From Deltaproteobacteria bacterium (GTDB taxonomy: Bacteria > Bdellovibrionota > UBA2394), in assembly GCA_017302715.1 (NCBI GenBank), contig JAFLCD010000001.1, positions 62,001 through 126,000 on the forward strand: 64,000 bases of DNA, written 5' to 3'. A model generated the notes under the pieces. That model saw only the letters and a program-made list of their open reading frames with translations, was not told the DNA's origin and did no database searches. Positions 6,686-29,250 of the stretch are shown here, piece after piece (position 1 is the stretch's first letter; each line of letters starts with the position of its first letter). A program made the translations under genes and the position numbers.

Positions 6686-7573
6686 ATGTCTTCAGAAGTA
6701 TCACTAAATTTGCCGCCGCCAGGCCCCTTTGGTCGAGGCTTCGATCCTTATAAAATTTCGATTCGAGTGATCGCCGTTTGCGTTGTTATTTCCCTTCTTA
6801 TTCATCTTTTAATTTTAATTTTTGCAGCGAGATATCAACCGTTCGCTGACAAGACATTAGAGACGGATCGAATTCCCATAGAAATCAATGTGCCCAATCA
6901 AATTTTAGACAGCATTCAGACGCTTCAAAAGTCTGCAGAAAAAACTCCGGAAGATGCAAAATTTGCGAGTGATCGAAATTTAAAAGCAGATGAAGAAACA
7001 AGTCCGCAGAGTGCTCCCACTTCTGTTCCACAAATTCGCGCTCAACCGAAATCTTCTCCCAGAGCTCAGACAAAAAAATCTAATGAAGGCATCGGAGAAA
7101 AAACAAAATTTTCGATTAGCCAAAAAGAAATGATGGAGGATGGCACTTTAGAGCAAGAGACACTTTCTCCTTCAGCTATTAATTCACCAGGATTTTTAAA
7201 TCGTTTGAAATTAGGTGAGCAGCTCAAATTAAATGCGAGAGAATTCGATTACGGCCAATACATCATCAGAATGAAAAATAAGCTTGTTCAACAGTGGAAT
7301 CCCAATAATACATTTAGCCCTCAGATGGTGAACTACAACGAAATTCGCGTGGAAATCGCGGTCATTTTGAACAAACTAGGTGAGATCGTAGAGCTGAGAA
7401 CTCTAAATCCTTCGATTTTTAATGCTTACGATCAAGAGGCTTTACGAGCGTTGCGAGAGTCGGGACCATTCCCAAATCCACCTAAATCCCTCATTCAAGA
7501 TGATGGATTTGTCTATATGCCCTGGAGTTTTACATTCTCTATCCGGCAATGGGGTGGGCCTCGTGTCGAGTAG
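6686..7573 (+). CDS. TonB-like protein (energy transducer family C-terminal domain)
   Basis: The architecture is that of TonB/TolA-like proteins: a short cytoplasmic Pro-rich start, one membrane helix (about residues 30-50), a charged periplasmic linker (60-150), and a C-terminal domain (about 195-295) with the pattern YIIRMKNKLVQQWNP, VAVILN-like strand, and DQEALRALRESGPFPNPP, typical of TonB-family C-terminal domains. It may pass energy to an outer-membrane receptor or act in a TolA-like role. No ExbB/ExbD or receptor gene is nearby. Start chosen at the ATG at 6686; an in-frame GTG at 6680 is possible. The last 35 bp overlap the next, convergent gene. Confidence 0.75.
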   Translation: MSSEVSLNLPPPGPFGRGFDPYKISIRVIAVCVVISLLIHLLILIFAARYQPFADKTLETDRIPIEINVPNQILDSIQTLQKSAEKTPEDAKFASDRNLKADEETSPQSAPTSVPQIRAQPKSSPRAQTKKSNEGIGEKTKFSISQKEMMEDGTLEQETLSPSAINSPGFLNRLKLGEQLKLNAREFDYGQYIIRMKNKLVQQWNPNNTFSPQMVNYNEIRVEIAVILNKLGEIVELRTLNPSIFNAYDQEALRALRESGPFPNPPKSLIQDDGFVYMPWSFTFSIRQWGGPRVE

Positions 7574-8216
7574 ATAAATTTTCATTTAAATCTACGGAAT
7601 GAATGGCTGCGTAAATCATTTGCCCATAGAGTTTTGCAGCGGCTCGCGCGGAATAAATAAAATCTTCTTCTTCTTTTCCATCAGAAATATTTTGATCGAT
7701 TAGATTTTCTAAATATTTATTGTGAGTAATATTCACAAGACTTCTATTCGAAACAAATGAAGTCGATTCTTTGGGAACGCCAATTCTTTCAAGCGCCTTT
7801 AAGTAGCCTCGACCTGCGGCTGGGTGCATCGATTCCAAATGATAAAAATATCCTAGGAAAGCGGGGATGGATTTTTGTTGAAGTAAATAATGACCAAAGC
7901 CTATGAAGGCCGCAGTTTCAGGAAGCGGGCGGCGATCAAAAATTTGAGAGGCGTCGATACCAAGAAACTTTAAATCGTTAACAAGAACTTGCTCTAAGTC
8001 GGCTTCGAAATTTACAATTTTAGAAAACAATTTCGATATAGATTTTTGAATAAATAAAATATCTCGAGTTTGAATCGCGAGCTCAAGCAAGATAGCTTTA
8101 TAGTGTTCAATATTCATTTCACGCAAAAGAATGCGTTTAAAACCCTCAGACTTGGACATTTCTACAAAGGCTTTTTGCCATTCATATTTGATTCGTTCGA
8201 TTTTGGATGTTGTCAT
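7539..8216 (-). CDS. Heme-oxygenase-fold protein with incomplete metal site
   Basis: This soluble 225-residue helical protein resembles the heme-oxygenase/TENA-like superfamily. I aligned it by eye with the clearer family member at 21953-22666: the shared anchor NDLKxLG and the later xLE motif line up. Compared with the diiron ligand set of that protein, Glu71, Glu128 and His165 are kept, but three ligands appear as Leu74, Leu169 and Leu172. It may bind heme or another ligand instead (for example through His38 in EHYKAILLE), or be a non-catalytic relative. Neighbours give no pathway. Function unknown; the fold is a moderate-confidence inference. Confidence 0.5.
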   Translation of the reverse strand: MTTSKIERIKYEWQKAFVEMSKSEGFKRILLREMNIEHYKAILLELAIQTRDILFIQKSISKLFSKIVNFEADLEQVLVNDLKFLGIDASQIFDRRPLPETAAFIGFGHYLLQQKSIPAFLGYFYHLESMHPAAGRGYLKALERIGVPKESTSFVSNRSLVNITHNKYLENLIDQNISDGKEEEDFIYSARAAAKLYGQMIYAAIHSVDLNENLSTRHEAHPIAG

Positions 8217-16878: not shown

Positions 16879-18000
16879 ATGTCAGTACCTGTTTCTCAAA
16901 TGTGGACGGTCGCATCTTATGTGATCAAACAAAAATTGATGGGCCGAAAGCGATATCCTTTGGTGTTAATGCTCGAGCCGCTCTTTCGTTGCAACTTATC
17001 GTGCGCGGGCTGTGGAAAAATTCAGTACCCCGACCATATTTTGAAAAAAGTTTTGAGTGCCGACCAATGTTTGGCCGCAGCAGATGAATGTGGAGCTCCA
17101 ATTGTGAGCATTCCTGGTGGCGAACCGCTTCTTCATCCCGAGATGCCTCAACTTGTCGAAGGTTTGGTTGCGCGTAAAAAATATATTTATTTATGTACGA
17201 ACGCGATTTTACTTAAATCTAAAATCGATCAATACAAAGCCACAAAATATCTGACGTTTTCGGTTCATATGGACGGATTGCAAGAAGAGCATGATGAAGC
17301 CGTTTGTCGCGATGGAACTTATGCCAAAGCGATCGAAGGAATCAAAGAAGCTTTGAAGCGCGGATTTCGTGTGACGACCAACACCACGCTTTTTGATGGA
17401 GCGAAGTCCGAGCGCGTTCGCGAATTTTTTGATGAGATGATGAAGCTAGGAGTTGAAGGGATGATGGTTTCTCCTGGATATTCTTATTCAAAAGCCCCCG
17501 ATCAAAATCATTTTTTAAAACGTCAAAAAACTTTTAAATTGTTTAGAGAGATTTTTTTTAACGGAAAGAAATCTTGGAGATTCAATCAGTCTCCTCTTTT
17601 CATTGAATATCTTGCGGGCTCAAGACACTTTGAATGCACGCCTTGGGGAAATCCAACTTACAATATTTTTGGATGGCAAAAACCCTGCTACTTACTTCAA
17701 GACGGATACGTAAAAACTTTTAATGAACTTCTTGAAACGACGAACTGGGATAATTACGGACGCAAGTCTGGTAATCCTGCATGCCAAGATTGCATGGTCC
17801 ACTGCGGTCATGAACCAACAGCCGTTGATTACACATTTGGAACAGCTAAAGGATTTTGGGGAACGGTGAAGGCCACTTTGTCTGGACCTAAAATTCACGC
17901 CCCTGATTCACCCATTTTTCCATTTATGTCGAAGCCAAAAAACTTTGTATCCGAGTACGAGCAGTCTGAAAATTCTGAGAAAGTGATGAAAAATGGCTAA
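16879..18000 (+). CDS. hpnH: HpnH-like radical SAM protein (adenosylhopane synthase)
   Basis: HpnH joins an adenosyl group to diploptene, the first step of hopanoid side-chain extension. The radical SAM cluster motif CNLSCAGC gives Cys38, Cys42 and Cys45; SIPGGEPLLHP and the C-terminal cysteine group (CQDCMVHCGHEP) are characteristic of HpnH among radical SAM proteins. Length 373 residues is normal. A good AGGAGAAAG ribosome site precedes the ATG. No squalene-hopene cyclase or other hpn gene is in the window, so the pathway must be completed elsewhere or the substrate may differ. The next gene overlaps it by 8 nt. Confidence 0.88.
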   Translation: MSVPVSQMWTVASYVIKQKLMGRKRYPLVLMLEPLFRCNLSCAGCGKIQYPDHILKKVLSADQCLAAADECGAPIVSIPGGEPLLHPEMPQLVEGLVARKKYIYLCTNAILLKSKIDQYKATKYLTFSVHMDGLQEEHDEAVCRDGTYAKAIEGIKEALKRGFRVTTNTTLFDGAKSERVREFFDEMMKLGVEGMMVSPGYSYSKAPDQNHFLKRQKTFKLFREIFFNGKKSWRFNQSPLFIEYLAGSRHFECTPWGNPTYNIFGWQKPCYLLQDGYVKTFNELLETTNWDNYGRKSGNPACQDCMVHCGHEPTAVDYTFGTAKGFWGTVKATLSGPKIHAPDSPIFPFMSKPKNFVSEYEQSENSEKVMKNG

Positions 18001-18346
18001 TGCATTTGAAAAAAGAGAATTTGTGCAGGGCGTTTCTCTTCGTGTAAGCGACGCAGATTTTTATGATGGATTAAGAGCTGTAGTCGATTATCGAGGCGAC
18101 TGCAAAATTTTGCTCAAAGACGGATCAGAAGCTGAAGGGTATATTTTTAATTTTACAAAACTCTGTGTGGATTTGATACCTGTTGATAGTGAGCAGAGAA
18201 AATCTTTTCTTATTTCAAACATCGCTGAAATTATTTTTTCCGGAGCGGATGCCGCTGCAGGAAAATCTTGGGAAGATTGGATGAAGCGAAAAGCTGCACA
18301 GAAATCTCATCAAGCTGCTTCTTCTGATGCGGCTTCGCATGCCTAA
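17993..18346 (+). CDS. Small conserved-looking protein coupled to hpnH
   Basis: This 117-residue soluble protein overlaps hpnH by 8 nt (ATGGCTAA) and is probably co-translated. The core (about residues 20-95) has short alternating strands, YRGDCKILLKDGSEAEGYIFN, then ISNIAEIIFSG and GKSWEDWMKRK, suggesting a small SH3/Sm-like beta barrel. I recall similar small proteins in other bacteria but no assigned function. The Ala/Ser-rich tail looks disordered. Its link to HpnH is inferred from the overlap only. Confidence 0.7.
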   Translation: MANAFEKREFVQGVSLRVSDADFYDGLRAVVDYRGDCKILLKDGSEAEGYIFNFTKLCVDLIPVDSEQRKSFLISNIAEIIFSGADAAAGKSWEDWMKRKAAQKSHQAASSDAASHA

Positions 18347-19070
18347 TTCTGAAAAAAAGCTCGCAGGTAAAATTGCCATCATCACAGGAGGAGCTCGCGG
18401 AATTGGCGCTGCCACGGCCGAACTTTTTATCTCTGAAGGTGCTAAAGTAATTATTACAAGTAGAACAAGCTCCGAGCTCGGAGAAGCGAGCTTGAGACTT
18501 CAAAAAGAATTTGGAGAAGATAAAATATTTTCCGTGGTAACCGATGTGAGTCGCGAAAAAGATGTTCTCAATTTATTTGACGCCACTGAGAAAAAGTTTG
18601 GAACTCCTTCAATTTTAATTAACAATGCCGCTATTTTTATTGGAAAGTCGGTTACAGAGATGAGCGTGTCTGAGTGGGATGAAACGATGGCGGTCAATGT
18701 GCGAGGAAGTTTTTTGTGCGCGCGTGAATCTTTTAAGCGAATGAAGCCCGGAGGTGCGATCGTCAATATCAGTTCTTTGGCAGGCGTAAGAGGTACCGAT
18801 AAATTTTTAAATTTTACTGCTTACACAACGAGCAAGTTTGGCGTCGTCGGAATGACAGAGAATTTAGCTGTCGAAGGTAAAGCTCTCGGAATTCGCGTAA
18901 ATTGTGTAGCTCCCGGCGCAGTAGAAACTGAAATGCTTCGCAAGGCAGCTCCGGGATTAAAAACTCAAACTAAACCCTCGGATATCGCGAAAGTTATTTT
19001 AACTTTGTGCGATGACAAAGAATCTAAAAATGTAACGGGATCTGTTATCGAATTATTCACTAACGTTTAG
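18339..19070 (+). CDS. Short-chain dehydrogenase/reductase (SDR)
   Basis: This NAD(P)-dependent oxidoreductase of the classical SDR family has 243 residues. Seen are the Rossmann motif TGGARGIG (16-23), the NNAA motif, the catalytic Ser in NISSLAG and the YTTSK (Tyr-x3-Lys) pair, and a PG motif followed by VETEML. The start at 18339 gives an 8-nt overlap with the previous gene. The pyruvoyl-tetrahydropterin synthase gene follows after 9 bp, so a sepiapterin-reductase role is possible; a hopanoid or sugar substrate is equally possible. Substrate cannot be read from sequence. Confidence 0.85.
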   Translation: MPNSEKKLAGKIAIITGGARGIGAATAELFISEGAKVIITSRTSSELGEASLRLQKEFGEDKIFSVVTDVSREKDVLNLFDATEKKFGTPSILINNAAIFIGKSVTEMSVSEWDETMAVNVRGSFLCARESFKRMKPGGAIVNISSLAGVRGTDKFLNFTAYTTSKFGVVGMTENLAVEGKALGIRVNCVAPGAVETEMLRKAAPGLKTQTKPSDIAKVILTLCDDKESKNVTGSVIELFTNV

Positions 19071-19079
19071 GAGATCGAG

Positions 19080-19493
19080 ATGTCGATTGTTTATCTTAGT
19101 CGTCGCGCCACATTCTGTGCTTCTCATAGACTTCATTCCGAAAAGCTTTCTCCAGCTGAAAATAAAAAATTATTTGGAAAATGTAATAGCGCGAACGGGC
19201 ACGGTCACAATTATATTTTAGAAGTAATCATTTGCGGGCAACTTAATCCGAAAACGGGAATTGTGATGGATTTAACGAAGCTAAAAAAAATTATCGAAGA
19301 TTCTGTTGTGGCTCGAGTCGATCACAAAAATCTCAATCTTGATGTCAGAGAGTTTAAATCTTTAAATCCGACGGCTGAAAATATGGCCGTTGTTTTTTGG
19401 GAATGGCTGGAAGAGGCCTTGCCTAAAGACTTGCTTTACGAGGTTCGTCTTCACGAAACCGAAAACAATATCGCTATTTACAGGGGCGAATAG
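19080..19493 (+). CDS. 6-pyruvoyl-tetrahydropterin synthase, animal-like type
   Basis: This zinc enzyme converts dihydroneopterin triphosphate to 6-pyruvoyl-tetrahydropterin in tetrahydrobiopterin synthesis. In 137 residues it has zinc ligands His16, His41 and His43, catalytic Cys35 in the spacing GKCNSANGHGHNY, the Asp-His pair in VDHKNLNLDV and the pterin-anchoring Glu in HETENN. The C-x5-HGHNY spacing and flanking residues match the animal BH4 enzyme closely and differ from QueD, which has C-x3-HGH. A BH4 role is therefore more likely than queuosine. folE, supplying the substrate, is at 51415. The SDR just upstream could be the final reductase. Confidence 0.88.
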   Translation: MSIVYLSRRATFCASHRLHSEKLSPAENKKLFGKCNSANGHGHNYILEVIICGQLNPKTGIVMDLTKLKKIIEDSVVARVDHKNLNLDVREFKSLNPTAENMAVVFWEWLEEALPKDLLYEVRLHETENNIAIYRGE

Positions 19494-21027: not shown

Positions 21028-21087
21028 GCAGGTTTAATTCAAATTTAACACTTTCAAGTTTTCTACTCTTGAATTTATAAATAAAAA

Positions 21088-21099
21088 TTGTTTATAAAT
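21088..21099. promoter_or_regulatory. 12-bp motif TTGTTTATAAAT upstream of response regulator
   Basis: TTGTTTATAAAT lies 24 bp before the start of the double-receiver gene. The same 12 bases occur at 23471-23482 in the divergent promoter of the acyltransferase/regulator genes. A similar ATTTATAAAT lies just upstream. The region is AT-rich, and I did not exhaustively count other copies in the window. Confidence 0.4.
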
Positions 21100-21123: not shown

Positions 21124-22014
21124 ATGGCTTCAACGTCAATAAAGATTCTTTTAGTAGAAAGCGAATCTCGAGATTCTTCTTTAATGTTAACTTTGTTAGG
21201 AGAATCTTCTCAACCGCGCTTCGAAACTAAGAATGTTAGTGCTTTGAGTGAGGCTCTTAAAGCGCTTGGTGAAGAAAAGTTTGGAGTTATTCTTCTCAAT
21301 CTCAATTTAAAAGATTCGGAAGGACTTCAGACGCTTACCAAAATTCTTACAAAATTTTCTCATACACCTGTCATTGTAATTAACGGAGCAGATGATGAAG
21401 CTCTGATGGCTAGAATGATGAAGTCCGGTGCTCAAGATTATTGGACTAAAGCACAAGTTGGCGCTCGTTTTATGAGTAGATCAATTGGATTGGCTGTGGA
21501 GCGTTTTAAATCTGTATCTCCACAAGTTTCGATGGCAGAGGCGATTAAAAGTAAAAATGCTGACGATCTTTCTAAGAAAGTTTCAGATGCTAAAATAGAG
21601 CAACGAGTCGGCGGCCGGCGTGAAAAAGTTTTAGTTGCTGAAGACGAAGAAGAAATTCTTCAAATTATTTTAAAACGTTTAGAGAAATTAGGATTTTCAG
21701 AAGTGGTTTCGGTTTCAAATGGAATGGAAGCTTACAATACTTGCATTGCTAAGATGAATCAGCATGAAAGCTTTGATGTCATTATTTCAGATTGGAAAAT
21801 GCCGCGGCTTAGTGGATTAGAATTTCTCACTAAAGTCCGCGGCAATATTCACTTAAAAGACACGCCGTTCATGATGATCACAGGAATGGATGAACGCGAT
21901 AATGTAAAAGAAGCGGCTGAGCACAAAGTTTCAGAATATCTCGTAAAGCCATTTAAGCTGGAAGACTTCGACCGTAAGATTGAAGGTCTTCTTCGCTCCT
22001 CGAAAAAGCGTTGA
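21124..22014 (+). CDS. Two-receiver response regulator with an inactive first receiver
   Basis: The 296-residue protein contains two CheY-like receiver domains and no output domain. The second (about 165-290) is complete: acidic pair AEDEEE, phosphoacceptor Asp223 in IISDWKMP, Thr in MITGMDE and Lys in LVKPFK. In the first (5-125) the phosphoacceptor position is Asn59 (LLNLNLKDSEGL), the acidic pair is Glu-Ser, and the switch Thr is Asn, so it should not be phosphorylated, though Lys (DYWTK) remains. It may act by protein contact. Its 3' end overlaps the convergent oxidase gene by 62 bp. Confidence 0.88.
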   Translation: MASTSIKILLVESESRDSSLMLTLLGESSQPRFETKNVSALSEALKALGEEKFGVILLNLNLKDSEGLQTLTKILTKFSHTPVIVINGADDEALMARMMKSGAQDYWTKAQVGARFMSRSIGLAVERFKSVSPQVSMAEAIKSKNADDLSKKVSDAKIEQRVGGRREKVLVAEDEEEILQIILKRLEKLGFSEVVSVSNGMEAYNTCIAKMNQHESFDVIISDWKMPRLSGLEFLTKVRGNIHLKDTPFMMITGMDERDNVKEAAEHKVSEYLVKPFKLEDFDRKIEGLLRSSKKR

Positions 22015-22666
22015 TATCAGAAACTTGAGAAATAATTTCTGCTAGGATCATTCGATACAAATCTGAACTTTGTTTTAGACTCTGAAGAATGATATCTGCT
22101 TCTGTAGGGGCAGCCATACTTAGTTTTTCAAAGGCCTCTGCAAGATGTCCGTCATCTTCTTGTGAATGAACTTTCCAAAACGTTGCGGTCTTTTCTCCAA
22201 ATGCTTTGCAAACTTGCCCATAGACGTCTTTTCCTGCTGTCGAAGATATTCCTTCAAGACAAAGAATGTATCCGTAGAGAGCGAGCGGATGTGCATAATC
22301 TATTAAATAGTATTGAGACTGATAAAAAGCAGACGTCATTGAAGATTCTGGAAATTGAGAAATGGGGTATCCCAAATGTTTAAGGTCATTAAGCGCTAAA
22401 ATCTCATGCGATCTTTCTTCTTTCATATGATCGAGGCAGCGCAGGTGAAATTTATTTTGTGATAATGAAAATCGTGCCGCTGATAACGATAGCAGTCGTG
22501 TAGAGTGACATACAAAATGATAAGTTTGCGCAAGCCATCGCGCGTAAGCTTCTCGATTTTGCCACGGAAACTTGTTGTAAATTTTTTGAAGAAGAACCAT
22601 TTCTCGATTAAAAGCTTCCTTAATTTTCTGACTGGTCATTTCATTTTTATTTTCTGTCGTATTCAT
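21953..22666 (-). CDS. Heme-oxygenase-like diiron oxidase (HDO superfamily)
   Basis: This soluble helical protein of 237 residues carries the full metal-ligand pattern of heme-oxygenase-like diiron enzymes: Glu84-x2-His87 (EERSHE), Glu138 (CLEG), then His167-x3-Asp171-x2-His174 (HSQEDDGH). Known members oxidise fatty acids, amino acids or similar substrates (UndA, CADD, SznF types). The substrate here is unknown. It follows the GNAT-like gene by 19 bp with a strong AAGGAGGG site, so both are made together and an acyl product of the first enzyme is a natural candidate substrate (inference). The end overlaps the response regulator gene by 62 bp. Confidence 0.8.
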   Translation of the reverse strand: MNTTENKNEMTSQKIKEAFNREMVLLQKIYNKFPWQNREAYARWLAQTYHFVCHSTRLLSLSAARFSLSQNKFHLRCLDHMKEERSHEILALNDLKHLGYPISQFPESSMTSAFYQSQYYLIDYAHPLALYGYILCLEGISSTAGKDVYGQVCKAFGEKTATFWKVHSQEDDGHLAEAFEKLSMAAPTEADIILQSLKQSSDLYRMILAEIISQVSDINAFSRSEEDLQSYGRSLPA

Positions 22667-22685
22667 TTTCCCTCCTTGAATAATT

Positions 22686-23384
22686 TTACGCTGCAGCTTG
22701 AGACTTTAGCGCGATCCCAAGCGGATCATTTTTTGTTAGCCAAAATTTTTCTACAAATTCTATCTCTGGATTTTGCTCTTCGATGCATTGACCTTTAAAA
22801 AATCCAATAATATCGACTGCCACATTGTGAAGATTCAAATCTGAAGCCAGGCACTTGGCACCTTTTCGATAGAGCATCTCATTCACTTTTCTTTCGTTGC
22901 GAGTAACGGATGTAATCGCTTGAGCAGAGGAGGCAGCAAAAAGTCGAAGGCCTAAACTACAGATGACATCTGCCAAAGAAATTCCAACGACTGAGCGTCT
23001 CCAATCGGGATTGACATACAGATACTCCATCGTCATCACCTGTTGAACACCTTCATTTTTTAATATTTCAAAAACTTTTGGTGGATAGGTTTTAAAGTAG
23101 GGATGCTCAAGGTGAGCGTTCCAATTCAAATTGAAAATGGAATAGGCTTGCAGCCCGATGACTTCGCTTCGATTTAAAAAAAGCCCTGCGACAATGCTTT
23201 GTCGAATGAAGTCTGGGGAGACAACTTGAGCATCACTTGAGAGTTCTTGAAATGTGCCTTCCCAGCCTTTTTTCCACGTTTCATAGAGCAGGCCCTGTTC
23301 TTTTATAAAGCCATCCACCGCTTGTCGGCCATCAAAGACGAAGTATTGAAGAGCGTTCAGCGCCTCTTTCTTTTCGGTTTGCAT
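22686..23384 (-). CDS. GNAT-fold acyltransferase, N-acyl-amino-acid-synthase-like
   Basis: The 232-residue protein starts at the ATG at 23384, which has a very strong GGGAGGGG site. Residues 119-141 (beginning MEYLYVNPDWRR, then VVGISLADVI) fit the GNAT strand 4, acyl-carrier pyrophosphate loop and helix; residues 161-180 (TRNERKVNEMLYRKGAKCL) fit the following Asn/Tyr-containing helix typical of GNAT and FeeM/autoinducer-synthase-like proteins. It is longer than simple N-acetyltransferases. Candidate products are N-acyl amino acids or related acylated signals. First gene of a two-gene operon with the diiron oxidase, divergent from two regulatory genes. Confidence 0.65.
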   Translation of the reverse strand: MQTEKKEALNALQYFVFDGRQAVDGFIKEQGLLYETWKKGWEGTFQELSSDAQVVSPDFIRQSIVAGLFLNRSEVIGLQAYSIFNLNWNAHLEHPYFKTYPPKVFEILKNEGVQQVMTMEYLYVNPDWRRSVVGISLADVICSLGLRLFAASSAQAITSVTRNERKVNEMLYRKGAKCLASDLNLHNVAVDIIGFFKGQCIEEQNPEIEFVEKFWLTKNDPLGIALKSQAAA

Positions 23385-23470
23385 TCTTTCCCCTCCCAAG
23401 GATTCCCTGCCAAAACATTGATTTTGCTAAAGAAAATTTTGGGGCGGCTTAAGCAATATGTAAATACAAT

Positions 23471-23515
23471 TTGTTTATAAATCTCGAACTTAACTAAAAT
23501 TTGATATATAAACAA
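23471..23515. promoter_or_regulatory. Divergent promoter with inverted TTGTTTATA sites
   Basis: TTGTTTATAAAT at 23471-23482 and its inverted partial copy TATAAACAA at 23507-23515 lie between the acyltransferase gene (leftward) and the sensor-like gene (rightward). The two TTGTTTATA halves face each other, with centres 36 bp apart. The 12-mer is identical to the one before the response regulator. The XRE protein encoded at 24215 is a plausible binder (inference). Confidence 0.45.
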
Positions 23516-23534
23516 AAAGCATTTATAACACATC

Positions 23535-24218
23535 ATGCTAGAAAAGCACCTAAATCAAGACACTTCCCATATTTCTTCACAGGTAATTCGGTTAAATGAA
23601 ATCGTGCAAAAGTTTGGAAGTCTTTTGGCCGCCAGTGGAATGAAAATTAACACTCGCCTTCGGTCGACGGCGAGAAAGCAAATCGCAACGATGGAATTAA
23701 GTCAGCTGACGGCACTAGTGAATCATTTTGAAAAATATGTGAACCTGATCGAACAGGCCTACAACAGAAAAGTTAATATTTTAGATTCAAAGCAACTCAC
23801 TTGGGCGTGTCTTCAATATTTAAAACTCAAACCCTGTCATGATGCTTTTGATAAAATTGAAGATGACCACGTCATTGAAATTTATAATAATGACCACATA
23901 CAAATTTTTAGAAATTTAAAATTTTTTGAACTTTGCAGTTATTCAGTTTACGAAATTTTAATTTTTGATTGGCCTACACTTTACTACCGAGATGAAAATA
24001 TTCTTCAGGAAATTTTTCAACAGACTCAGCGCGCACTTACAGAGAAATTAGGGACTGAATTTTATTCTGGAATTCCGCCGCATATTCTGCGAGAGAGATT
24101 TTCTGAGGAACAGAGGAGTTTCAGAATAGAAATGGGAATGCATTCACCACTTTATAATTTAGACAATTCAAAACAACCCGAAGCCGTGCTTCTTACATTG
24201 AAAGCTACTCGCATATGA
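23535..24218 (+). CDS. Unknown protein, possible sensor partner of the XRE regulator
   Basis: I do not recognise this 227-residue soluble protein. The N-terminal third (1-85) is helical, including a basic stretch near 37-50. The middle (about 85-165) has a mixed strand/helix pattern (HVIEIYNNDHIQIF, YEILIFDWPTLY) rather like a PAS or other small-ligand sensor domain. There is no HTH motif. Its stop overlaps the start of the XRE gene by 4 nt (ATGA), so the two are co-translated. No clear ribosome site precedes the ATG; the mRNA may be nearly leaderless. A ligand-sensing role in the cluster is inference. Confidence 0.6.
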   Translation: MLEKHLNQDTSHISSQVIRLNEIVQKFGSLLAASGMKINTRLRSTARKQIATMELSQLTALVNHFEKYVNLIEQAYNRKVNILDSKQLTWACLQYLKLKPCHDAFDKIEDDHVIEIYNNDHIQIFRNLKFFELCSYSVYEILIFDWPTLYYRDENILQEIFQQTQRALTEKLGTEFYSGIPPHILRERFSEEQRSFRIEMGMHSPLYNLDNSKQPEAVLLTLKATRI

Positions 24219-24508
24219 AACACAAAGGACAAAGTCTTTTTACAGAACTTGGAAACTATTTAAAAACAAAGCGATTGGCCGCAAAACTCAGTCAAAGCGA
24301 TGCAAGTAAAGCGCTAGGATACTCCGGCCCACAATTCATTTCGAATTTTGAGCGCGGTCTGTGTGCTCCGCCCATTGGAAAATTAAAAATCTTAGTCGAT
24401 CTTTATAATATTTCTCATAAAGAGCTCACTTATCTTTTAATGAAAGAGCAGCGTAAATATATTGATTTTCATTTATCGAGGACGAAAAGCGCTAGGAAAA
24501 AAGCTTAA
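24215..24508 (+). CDS. XRE-family helix-turn-helix regulator
   Basis: This 97-residue DNA-binding protein has an XRE/Cro-type HTH across residues 10-65: LGNYLKTKRLAAKLSQSDASK, then PQFISNFERG and PPIGKLKILVDLY. The basic C-terminal tail (RTKSARKKA) could add DNA contact. It overlaps the upstream unknown gene by 4 nt. The divergent TTGTTTATA sites at 23471-23515 are candidate targets. Confidence 0.88.
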   Translation: MKHKGQSLFTELGNYLKTKRLAAKLSQSDASKALGYSGPQFISNFERGLCAPPIGKLKILVDLYNISHKELTYLLMKEQRKYIDFHLSRTKSARKKA

Positions 24509-26277: not shown

Positions 26278-29250
26278 GTGGGTAGTAGGGGAAAAGCATA
26301 TTCTGTTAGGGTTCTTAACGCGTTTCGCGTTTTTATTTTAGTCTCCATTTTTTGTTTTTCATTTTCGGTAAAAACTTTCGGTCAACCCGATCCCGATTTT
26401 ACCGTTTATCAACCGAGCAAATTTTTTAAAGAGTTTTCTTCAGAGTATTTTCCAGAGATGGATAAAATTAATCCTCAAACTTATCCAGAGTTTCAAAACT
26501 TTGTTAATTTTCTAGATCGTCATGGAATTCCATTTTCGATTGGTACGAACGCGAACAAGCAAACTATTTTTGAGCTTTATCTTCCGGATGTAAATCGACC
26601 CGAAGGTCAAACGCCTCCTACGATCGGCGCTTCTCGAGAGCGCGAAGTCGGTAATCTTTATTTTTTAATGCATGATGTGGTTCATCACATCGTTGGAATT
26701 CCCGGGCCACGATTGACGGATTTAAAAAACCGAGAAGCTGCAAAGAAAAAACTAATCGATATCATGTTGATGAAAGAGCAAGTAGCAACCTCTCACTCAC
26801 TCATGGATTATGTTCGCTATTATTGGAATTGGCGTGATGAAGTGCGACACGGAAAATTGCGACCTGATTTCGAAAGATTGAATCGCGGAGCCTTTCCGTT
26901 TGGCGACATTCCCCGAGATGACTATGTCGAAATTATTGGACACTTTGTTCATGGTCGAACGTGGGAATATTCTAAAATTCTTAGAAAATATTTAGATGCT
27001 GGAATTACAGAGGAAGCGAGACGCGCTGGCATTCCTAATCCTGCGCAGAATTTTAGTAAATTTTTAGGATTTAAGGGCGAAGCTTTAGCTTACAAGTTTT
27101 TAGTTCCGATTGTTGAACCCATTTTAGCTCGATATCGCGAAGTGGGTTACTGGGGATTTTTGAAATATTCAGAAGCGATGGCGGATTTCATGCTTCAAGA
27201 CTGGTATGTGGAGTGGGCCGATCGCTTTCATTTTGGATATTCATTTGACGAATTAGAGGCTCGTGGCGCTGATGCACTCAAAAAATTAAAAAGCGGAGAG
27301 CATTTAGGAGATGCTAACCCAGCAAAGCCGTACGAATTTGATCTTCGCTATCTTCAAAATCAGATCGCGCTTTTTGGAAGAAGAGTCATGGAAGTGCGGG
27401 AGTTAGGACGTCAGGGAAATTCACGAGCTGATTTCAGTGCACAGGATGCATCGAGACTAAAATATTTTTATGATGAAGCTGCAAAATTAAGCGATGAGCT
27501 TCGAGAAGCAAATGTTGATGCGCTAAATGAAAAGCAGATTGAAACTTGGAAATCCAAATTTCATTCACAAATGGAAAATTGCCAAAAAGAATTTTCAATA
27601 GAAAAATATATTCCATTTAAAATTCGCCAACCCTTTATTAATTACGACCGTTATTGGTTCGATATGACCGCGCTTGCGATGCCCCGATATGGGCATAATT
27701 CTGCAGGCTCTAGTCCCGGCGGAATTAAAGAAATGGTGGTTATGGATCGCGAGGCTCAAAAAAGTTTTTGGGGATTTGCACGCGCGAAGATGAAGGATTG
27801 GTATATGCGAAATATTATCGGCATTCCCGATCTTTGGGATTTTCAAAAAGACTTGGCTGCCGATTATGAAAAAGCTCAGGAGGCCGTTAAGCCCACTGAA
27901 TTTAAGTCGAGTCCAGAAAATCTTCCCGTTTATATTCAGCGCCTAAGAAAATTGGCCGAGGCTGTCTCTCAACAGGTTGAGCTTGTGGTGCTTCCACAAA
28001 TTTTAGAAGGAATCCAACTTGATATAGAAACAAGAGATGCGATCAAAGAGAGCTTGGACGGGTTCAATTATGTAACAACTTTGAGAACGCTTGAGCTTGA
28101 AGCATTGTACGAGAATACTTTTGAGAAAAAGGGAACCACTCGTTCTCCTTCTACATTATTGAGAAATCAGGAATTACGCTTACATCAATTTTTTAGCCGA
28201 TCTTATGATCTCATTTTAGAATTGCTGGATGCCAATGAACAAAAGCAGTCACCAGAAAAATTGAAAGCAATAGCTGAAAAATTACAGCAAATTAATCGAA
28301 TAGGTTTAACTGTTAGGGGGGAATTTCCCGCGTTAGGAACTGCGAAAGATATTGCGGAAATCTTGCCAGTAAATGGAAGTGTTAAGTTTACGATTCCTCC
28401 GTTTATAAAAAAAGTTTTGTACGGAAGCAAAGTTTCAAGCACGGAGCTTCTCAGTAAATTATCTGTTTCAAGTTTGTGGCGTGCTGGAAATCAATATGAT
28501 GTGAAGTTGACTGGTTGGGATCCCGTCGATGCACCTCGTGACGGCGGCGTTTTTGTTTTAGCTCTTAATCATGAGCAAGGCCCCATTGATTCGGTCATAG
28601 GAATTCAAGCTCTCAAGAAAATGGGTGCAACGAGAGTTATTTTGTTGGCCACTCGCTCTGCGATGCAGGTTTATCAAAGAAAAAATTATATTGAGTCGGA
28701 TGTTGTTTTTATCGAGGACGAAAAGCCTGTTGATCAGTTACTTCAAAAAATTTCTTCAGCAAAAAATGAAAAAATTGGAGTTCTTATTTTTCCTGAGGGA
28801 GTTATCACTAATCAAAAAACTTGGTCTCCTATGTCTGCTAAACCTGGAGCCTTTGTTTTGGCGAGGCGAGCGGCGGCAAAATTATTAGGAATTAAGTCCG
28901 TATACTTCATCACAGGTCAGCACAATGGCCTCGAACATTTTACAAACGAGTCTCGAGCCTCTTACAATTTAAATTTAGAAGCTCCTCAGTTGGTGCCTTC
29001 AACTTCTGTCTCTGAGAATGATGAGTGGGTGAATCAGCAGCGACTTCAATTTGAGAACCGCCTAAACCAAAATCGAAGCAACCAGCTTATTGATTTAATT
29101 CATCGAAGACTTATTCCTGGAACCAAAGCTTTAGCGACTTCACCGCTTAAACCTTATTTGCAGTTTAAGGATTGGTTTAGCCCCTCTGTAATTAAAAAAT
29201 GCGCTCGACCTTTAGAAATTATCGGTAAACAAAAAGCAAAACCGAACTAA
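26278..29250 (+). CDS. Large exported protein with C-terminal PlsC-like acyltransferase domain
   Basis: The 990-residue protein starts with GTG and has an N-terminal hydrophobic segment (about 15-33) that looks like a signal peptide, cleaved near TFG-QP. An N-terminal unknown domain (about 45-330) carries MHDVVHHIVG with His132, Asp133, His136 and His137, a possible metal site. A helical middle follows. The C-terminal part (about 730-960) resembles PlsC/LPLAT acyltransferases: LNHEQGPID (His765, Asp771) and FPEG (838-841). The His-Asp spacing is HX5D, one residue longer than the usual HX4D. If exported, it would act outside the cytoplasm, where acyl-CoA and acyl-ACP are absent. The next gene encodes a related domain. 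Confidence 0.65.
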   Translation: MGSRGKAYSVRVLNAFRVFILVSIFCFSFSVKTFGQPDPDFTVYQPSKFFKEFSSEYFPEMDKINPQTYPEFQNFVNFLDRHGIPFSIGTNANKQTIFELYLPDVNRPEGQTPPTIGASREREVGNLYFLMHDVVHHIVGIPGPRLTDLKNREAAKKKLIDIMLMKEQVATSHSLMDYVRYYWNWRDEVRHGKLRPDFERLNRGAFPFGDIPRDDYVEIIGHFVHGRTWEYSKILRKYLDAGITEEARRAGIPNPAQNFSKFLGFKGEALAYKFLVPIVEPILARYREVGYWGFLKYSEAMADFMLQDWYVEWADRFHFGYSFDELEARGADALKKLKSGEHLGDANPAKPYEFDLRYLQNQIALFGRRVMEVRELGRQGNSRADFSAQDASRLKYFYDEAAKLSDELREANVDALNEKQIETWKSKFHSQMENCQKEFSIEKYIPFKIRQPFINYDRYWFDMTALAMPRYGHNSAGSSPGGIKEMVVMDREAQKSFWGFARAKMKDWYMRNIIGIPDLWDFQKDLAADYEKAQEAVKPTEFKSSPENLPVYIQRLRKLAEAVSQQVELVVLPQILEGIQLDIETRDAIKESLDGFNYVTTLRTLELEALYENTFEKKGTTRSPSTLLRNQELRLHQFFSRSYDLILELLDANEQKQSPEKLKAIAEKLQQINRIGLTVRGEFPALGTAKDIAEILPVNGSVKFTIPPFIKKVLYGSKVSSTELLSKLSVSSLWRAGNQYDVKLTGWDPVDAPRDGGVFVLALNHEQGPIDSVIGIQALKKMGATRVILLATRSAMQVYQRKNYIESDVVFIEDEKPVDQLLQKISSAKNEKIGVLIFPEGVITNQKTWSPMSAKPGAFVLARRAAAKLLGIKSVYFITGQHNGLEHFTNESRASYNLNLEAPQLVPSTSVSENDEWVNQQRLQFENRLNQNRSNQLIDLIHRRLIPGTKALATSPLKPYLQFKDWFSPSVIKKCARPLEIIGKQKAKPN

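Follow-up and report, generated by a model that had tools for sequence, protein, structure and literature searches.

The window analyzed here, a stretch of 64,000 nucleotides from a Deltaproteobacteria bacterium assigned to Bdellovibrionota (contig JAFLCD010000001.1, positions 62,001 to 126,000), carries a compact gene module in which an acyltransferase and a heme-oxygenase-like diiron oxidase (HDO) are encoded divergently from a PAS-domain protein and an XRE-type DNA-binding regulator. We consider it fairly probable, if well short of certain, that the module couples acyl transfer to O2-dependent oxidation under dedicated PAS/XRE control, a judgment that does not extend to product sensing. The module probably makes an oxidized fatty-acyl product and may also sense it; we infer the order of events, acyl transfer and then O2-dependent oxidation, from the enzyme families and from the precedent of the Tyz pathways compared below. 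All five open reading frames (ORFs) that an earlier sequence-only reading had placed at 21124-24508 are present, including the co-translated pair and the strong ribosome sites, which are of the GGAGG type before both the acyltransferase and the HDO genes. The acyltransferase gene (22686..23384, minus strand) encodes 232 amino acids (aa) from an ATG start, or 237 aa from a TTG further upstream, and is separated by 19 bp from the HDO gene (21953..22666, minus strand). On the plus strand, the gene for the PAS protein, a likely sensor of 227 aa (23535..24218), overlaps by 4 bp that of the 97-aa XRE regulator (24215..24508; HTH_3 E 5.6e-8). The fifth gene (21124..22014, plus strand) encodes a response regulator with two Response_reg stretches in Pfam and converges on the HDO gene with a 62-bp overlap. 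What had been described as a five-gene cluster contains a conserved module of four: the two-receiver gene is lineage-specific, being kept as a neighbor, beside the HDO gene, solely in the closest relative (L061; L, G and C numbers are our handles for loci, genomes and contigs), and it was rejected as a core part on that ground.

In single-protein searches of 97 relatives, 32 genomes had the acyltransferase and 31 the 227-aa partner, mostly in the same place. An acyltransferase profile matched 107 of the 291 Bdellovibrionota genomes sampled or, in terms of genera, 57 of 163. We annotated the neighborhoods of 99 acyltransferase loci (16 families) with profiles built in this analysis, taking a distance of 3.5 kb; because these loci come for the most part from the higher-scoring among about 130 matches, weak relatives are under-represented. 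Some oxidase lies within this distance of the acyltransferase at 89 of the 99 loci, namely an HDO at 76, a desaturase at 14 (4 of these alongside an HDO) and an FAD oxidase at 3, while the PAS partner is found at 70 and an XRE relative at 45. By our own arithmetic, which assumes a genome of 3 Mb with a handful of HDO genes, proximity to an HDO would be expected at random in about 2% of cases, and the grouping of acyltransferase, oxidase and partner is far beyond chance. Of the 17 loci of family f9, 5 have the PAS partner and 12 have a histidine-kinase gene, and at one locus of this family (L087) the kinase domains were confirmed by Pfam. The acyltransferase and HDO genes mostly share a strand and lie close together or overlap, with the acyltransferase first in 61 cases and the HDO first in 8; the order of the remaining genes is variable. 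The set of acyltransferase, HDO, PAS partner and XRE genes, whose separation in relatives would have refuted the sequence-only reading, has been kept together across Bdellovibrionota, with order and strand shuffled.

Genomes with the acyltransferase carry one to four copies of it. The whole module occurs twice, side by side, in the four-copy genome G075 (L070 4705-12228), and two desaturase-type copies stand side by side at L130. From a named genome collection, 15 loci were retrieved with a narrow HDO alignment, 14 of them from organisms of the Bdellovibrionota group; the 15th is a metagenome-assembled genome (L104) whose gene order matches that of L064 of Bdellovibrionota. Because one of the 14 lies in the complete genome of Bdellovibrio qaytius (CP025734.1, L106), the module is directly testable. 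A search for related loci using the single acyltransferase sequence gave no matches. Plasmids, which were searched with a single acyltransferase protein and not with the profile used for Bdellovibrionota, gave no tblastn match; a plasmid of Bdellovibrio sp. HM001 (L190) carries acyltransferase, HDO, PAS and XRE genes. The PBP2, RodA, SLT and thioredoxin genes beside the Bdellovibrio copies look like a chromosomal site only and were rejected as module parts. A tree of the acyltransferase shows 37 changes of taxonomic family and requires 8 changes of the desaturase label, at least 4 of the latter being forced by supported branches, although the tree is a quick one with long branches and the exact counts are uncertain. 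Such frequent changes of both labels point to probable horizontal transfer of the module and probable repeated replacement of its oxidase.

Pfam and NCBIfam contain no family that matches the acyltransferase or the 227-aa partner. The AlphaFold2 model of the acyltransferase, built from a 15-sequence alignment (pLDDT 91.6, pTM 0.89), has a GNAT fold nearest FeeM and the acyl-homoserine lactone (AHL) synthases, in keeping with the earlier description of the protein as GNAT-like. In a Foldseek search of the PDB, AAC(2')-Ia is followed by FeeM, BjaI, RpaI, LasI and EsaI, with E values of about 1e-6, TM-scores of about 0.45-0.63 and identities of 8-16%; the chains of the FeeM structure 2g0b hold ranks 2, 11, 12 and 15. 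Four AHL synthases (LasI, EsaI, BjaI and RpaI) are among the top matches, and general GNAT proteins score alike. Residues W37, F59, R61, R129, R162 and G175 are retained in 86-95% of the 99 members, among which we could recognize no acetyl-CoA loop pattern in our reading of the alignment. Sequence comparison gave chance matches only when the acyltransferase profile was run against PDB sequences, and weak similarity to FeeM relatives with hhalign (E 9e-4 in one comparison). Since the profiles of the AHL synthases and of FeeM fail to match it, as detailed below, the acyltransferase is by sequence a separate family with a modeled AHL-synthase/FeeM fold. As an enzyme of this fold class, it very likely makes an acylated small molecule.

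The proposal that the second enzyme is an HDO is upheld by a match to PF14518 (35.6 bits, above the cut-off of 28.9; E 1.1e-8) and by a complete set of metal ligands. Residues E84, H87, E138, H167, D171 and H174, which from the known UndA/SznF pattern and spacing we take to be the diiron ligands, are 98-100% conserved in 74 sequences, and because they keep the spacing of known HDO ligands the module enzymes look active. The nearest solved relatives by profile are 3dde, of unknown function, and MboA of mangotoxin biosynthesis, described as an acetylenase (PMC13185094). A second HDO-like gene in the window (7539-8216, minus strand; profile E 4e-8), in which the E-xx-H and H-xxx-D-xx-H motifs are unrecognizable by eye, is likely an inactive paralogue. 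Across the phylum, the oxidase slot is occupied by an HDO, a membrane fatty-acid desaturase or an FAD_binding_4 oxidase. The first two His boxes are present in all five desaturases checked and the third, HxxHH, in three. Two loci encode fusions of the acyltransferase to its oxidase, one to an HDO (L132, 458 aa) and one to an FAD oxidase (L155, 770 aa). Because unrelated oxidases, one of them a fatty-acid desaturase, share one slot, their common substrate would be expected to carry an acyl chain. It is likely that the oxidase acts on the acyltransferase product or on the acyl donor. The pairing of an acyltransferase with an HDO has also recurred independently: FeeM-family (PF21926) genes of Bdellovibrionota form two-gene operons with HDO genes (L183 136-1620, with a 24-bp gap, and L184 648-2070, with overlapping genes; the relatives include the family member G004), and at L186 a PF21926 gene is divergent from an HDO gene. 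Genome G004, which has such an operon, lacks the acyltransferase family of the window.

The protein that the sequence-only reading had called unknown but sensor-like can now be described more closely as a set of N-terminal helices joined to a C-terminal PAS domain. Its AlphaFold2 model (pLDDT 93) has a C-terminal domain whose best Foldseek matches are the PAS domains of HIF2a, ARNT and NifL, and the order of strands and helices fits the PAS fold. At the level of sequence profiles, PAS_9 was reached by 2 of 28 members with a best E of 0.12, which does not identify a PAS domain, and the partner profile gave chance matches only against PDB sequences. A LuxR-type receptor was not found either, the regulators being a PAS protein and an HTH_3 XRE protein, with a single weak PF03472 match (E 0.012) among 28 members.

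We propose that the acyltransferase, whose fold is modeled, would take a fatty-acyl group from acyl-acyl carrier protein or acyl-CoA and attach it to a small amine or amino acid, and that the HDO, or elsewhere the membrane desaturase or FAD oxidase, would use O2 to oxidize or desaturate the product or the acyl donor. The divergent PAS protein and the XRE regulator would control the operon via inverted repeats between the divergent genes. In the simplest form of the model, the PAS domain would bind the oxidized acyl product and alter repression by XRE, giving a feedback or signal loop without LuxR. That the PAS protein senses the oxidized acyl product is a possibility about which we lean toward doubt. 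We are slightly more doubtful of the wider reading that the module represents a new class of cell-cell signaling, in which a LuxI-fold synthase and a swappable O2-dependent oxidase make an oxidized acyl signal that is read by the PAS protein with XRE. Two inverted repeats are candidate operators: one (23461..23525) contains TTGTTTATAAAT and lies in the promoter region between the divergent acyltransferase and PAS genes, and the other (21073..21099) contains this 12-mer and precedes the two-receiver gene. The 2.39-Mb genome holds three exact copies, compared with none of a reversed control pattern, and the third lies about 150 bp upstream of a gene for an HlyD-type membrane-fusion protein, an efflux adaptor (L198 1501-2603, contig C14). 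At up to one mismatch the window contains six sites, above all 100 shuffles. In L061 no copy of the motif is evident. The sharing of the motif by both candidate operators suggests, short of proof, a small XRE regulon that includes the two-receiver gene. Scans for sigma-70 promoters and terminators stayed at chance level, and a downstream tRNA was the sole RNA element found.

Several results weigh against this interpretation. The top Foldseek match by E-value is AAC(2')-Ia, an aminoglycoside acetyltransferase, and because this enzyme heads a list on which the TM-scores are only modest, the fold alone leaves the reaction open. The PF00765 (AHL synthase) profile has no match at the locus or, in Pfam, among 31 members, and the PF21926 (FeeM) profile matches neither the acyltransferase nor any of 31 members; it does match a different gene of the same genome. 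An oxidase is absent at 10 of the 99 loci, including one Bdellovibrio clade of seven that lacks both oxidase and PAS neighbors (L079, L082, L119, L134, L135, L137 and L143). Nor is any exporter gene conserved. Finally, PAS paralogues also occur without acyltransferase neighbors, with five in genome G072 (L204-L208), one of which has its own XRE gene (L206), and others at L096-L099, where L098 has one. By analogy, these orphan paralogues resemble orphan LuxR receptors. At L079, a glutathione-S-transferase-like gene adjoins the acyltransferase, and the orphan at L206 adjoins a BamA/Omp85-type gene.

Other functions for the same genes have to be weighed. Rather than serving in signaling, the enzymes could carry out lipid tailoring under oxygen or redox control, making a modified amino-lipid for the membrane, with the PAS protein acting as a heme- or flavin-type sensor of O2 or redox state that switches the operon on in the presence of O2. 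The PAS matches include the FAD-binding PAS domain of NifL and a heme PAS domain, every partner oxidase needs O2 or performs redox chemistry, and histidine kinases take the place of the PAS protein in family f9. However, the PAS protein has no assignable heme- or flavin-binding residues, and the presence of a single dedicated PAS/XRE pair with each enzyme set, together with many orphan paralogues, fits ligand receptors better; we consider this function unlikely, though a serious contender. Somewhat less likely still is a secreted bioactive compound, such as a surfactant or an antimicrobial directed against prey or competitors, for which PAS/XRE would be mere regulation. The patchy distribution, the signs of horizontal exchange in the family changes and the plasmid copy, and the efflux adaptor gene downstream of the third TTGTTTATAAAT copy would be typical of such a product or agree with it, whereas the clusters are very small, have no conserved exporter or resistance gene, and occur in one to four copies per genome, usually each with its own regulators.

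It is very improbable, in our view, that the HDO is incidental to a GNAT protein acting as a common acetyltransferase or as a toxin whose antitoxin is the XRE protein. The GNAT fold, the leading position of AAC(2')-Ia and the nearby XRE gene are what such a system would offer, but the XRE gene is joined to the PAS gene rather than to the acyltransferase, and there is no family or PADLOC match. A toxin-antitoxin or defense system is unsupported by PADLOC, which gave no match for the acyltransferase or the PAS protein and elsewhere returned generic helix-turn-helix and receiver matches only. Incidental neighbors were rejected on the co-location of HDO and PAS genes and on the fusions; for the HDO, chance company is excluded because of its presence at 76 of 99 loci, the two oxidase fusions and the repeated oxidase swaps.

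Acyl transfer and oxidation under PAS/XRE control would have several consequences. The acyltransferase is a new family that no database names. The sequence-only reading, which had proposed a previously undescribed pathway, is partly supported; we found no description of the module in the literature, many journals being outside the coverage of the search, and of the acyl or amino acid substrates that this reading named for HDO enzymes, the fatty-acid desaturase swaps favor an acyl one. If the interpretation is true, a predatory phylum is provided with a pathway dedicated to an acyl metabolite and perhaps also with a first pair of signal synthase and receptor, none being named in the literature searched, and a new signaling class would be present in over a third of the sampled Bdellovibrionota genomes. 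The interchangeability of HDOs, desaturases and flavin oxidases beside one acyltransferase family also provides a strong handle on HDO substrates. Elsewhere in the window, inspection by eye shows a radical-SAM gene resembling the hopanoid enzyme HpnH and, after it, a 117-aa ORF, a short-chain dehydrogenase/reductase (SDR) and a QueD/PTPS-like gene (16879-19493), and a 990-aa ORF with a PlsC-like acyltransferase region near its C terminus (26278-29250).

Among the nearest known systems are the acyl-oxazolone pathways, TyzA-TyzC-TyzB of Mycobacterium tuberculosis and OxzA-OxzB of Pseudoalteromonas rubra; in the former, the FeeM/BjaI-like TyzA has as its partner an O2-dependent oxidase by which N-acyl-tyrosine is desaturated (PMC10404671). 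The module shares with them an acyltransferase of FeeM/BjaI-like fold beside an O2-dependent oxidase. Their oxidase, however, is a nitroreductase-family flavoprotein, whereas the module has an HDO, FA_desaturase or FAD_binding_4 protein, and they need a ThiF cyclase, whereas the module has a PAS/XRE pair attached; Pfam found no ThiF-like cyclase in the window module, and no systematic search was made across all loci. The module HDO has PF14518 and the complete ligand set in common with UndA, SznF, BesC and MboA but forms a phylum-specific subfamily with a different partner gene. The nearest HDOs outside Bdellovibrionota in the plasmid collection belong to gammaproteobacterial operons of a PF12261 ("thermostable hemolysin") gene, an AMP-binding gene, an HDO and an SDR, on plasmids of Pseudoalteromonas, Vibrio and Citrobacter (L191 3784-7352, L192 3829-7363, L194 3783-7386 and L195 3782-7352, the last with the HDO fused to the AMP-binding protein). 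These differ from the module in the extra adenylating enzyme and SDR, and some continue into TPR, response-regulator and ATP-binding (kinase-like) genes. A relationship between the acyltransferase and PF12261 was rejected, as hhalign finds no profile similarity, and the literature searched assigns these operons no function. With FeeM the module shares the fold (2g0b), and FeeM-family proteins of Bdellovibrionota are likewise paired with HDOs, but the FeeM profile fails on the module acyltransferase and profile-profile similarity is weak only. LuxI/LuxR systems have the same synthase fold and likewise a regulator gene transcribed away from that of the synthase; in contrast, the module has no PF00765 match, contains an oxidase, and has a receptor-like PAS protein and a separate XRE protein instead of LuxR. 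In sequence tests the module falls outside LuxI, FeeM, LuxR and Tyz/Oxz, although its proposed mode of action is that of known acyltransferase-oxidase pairs and its arrangement that of a signal system.

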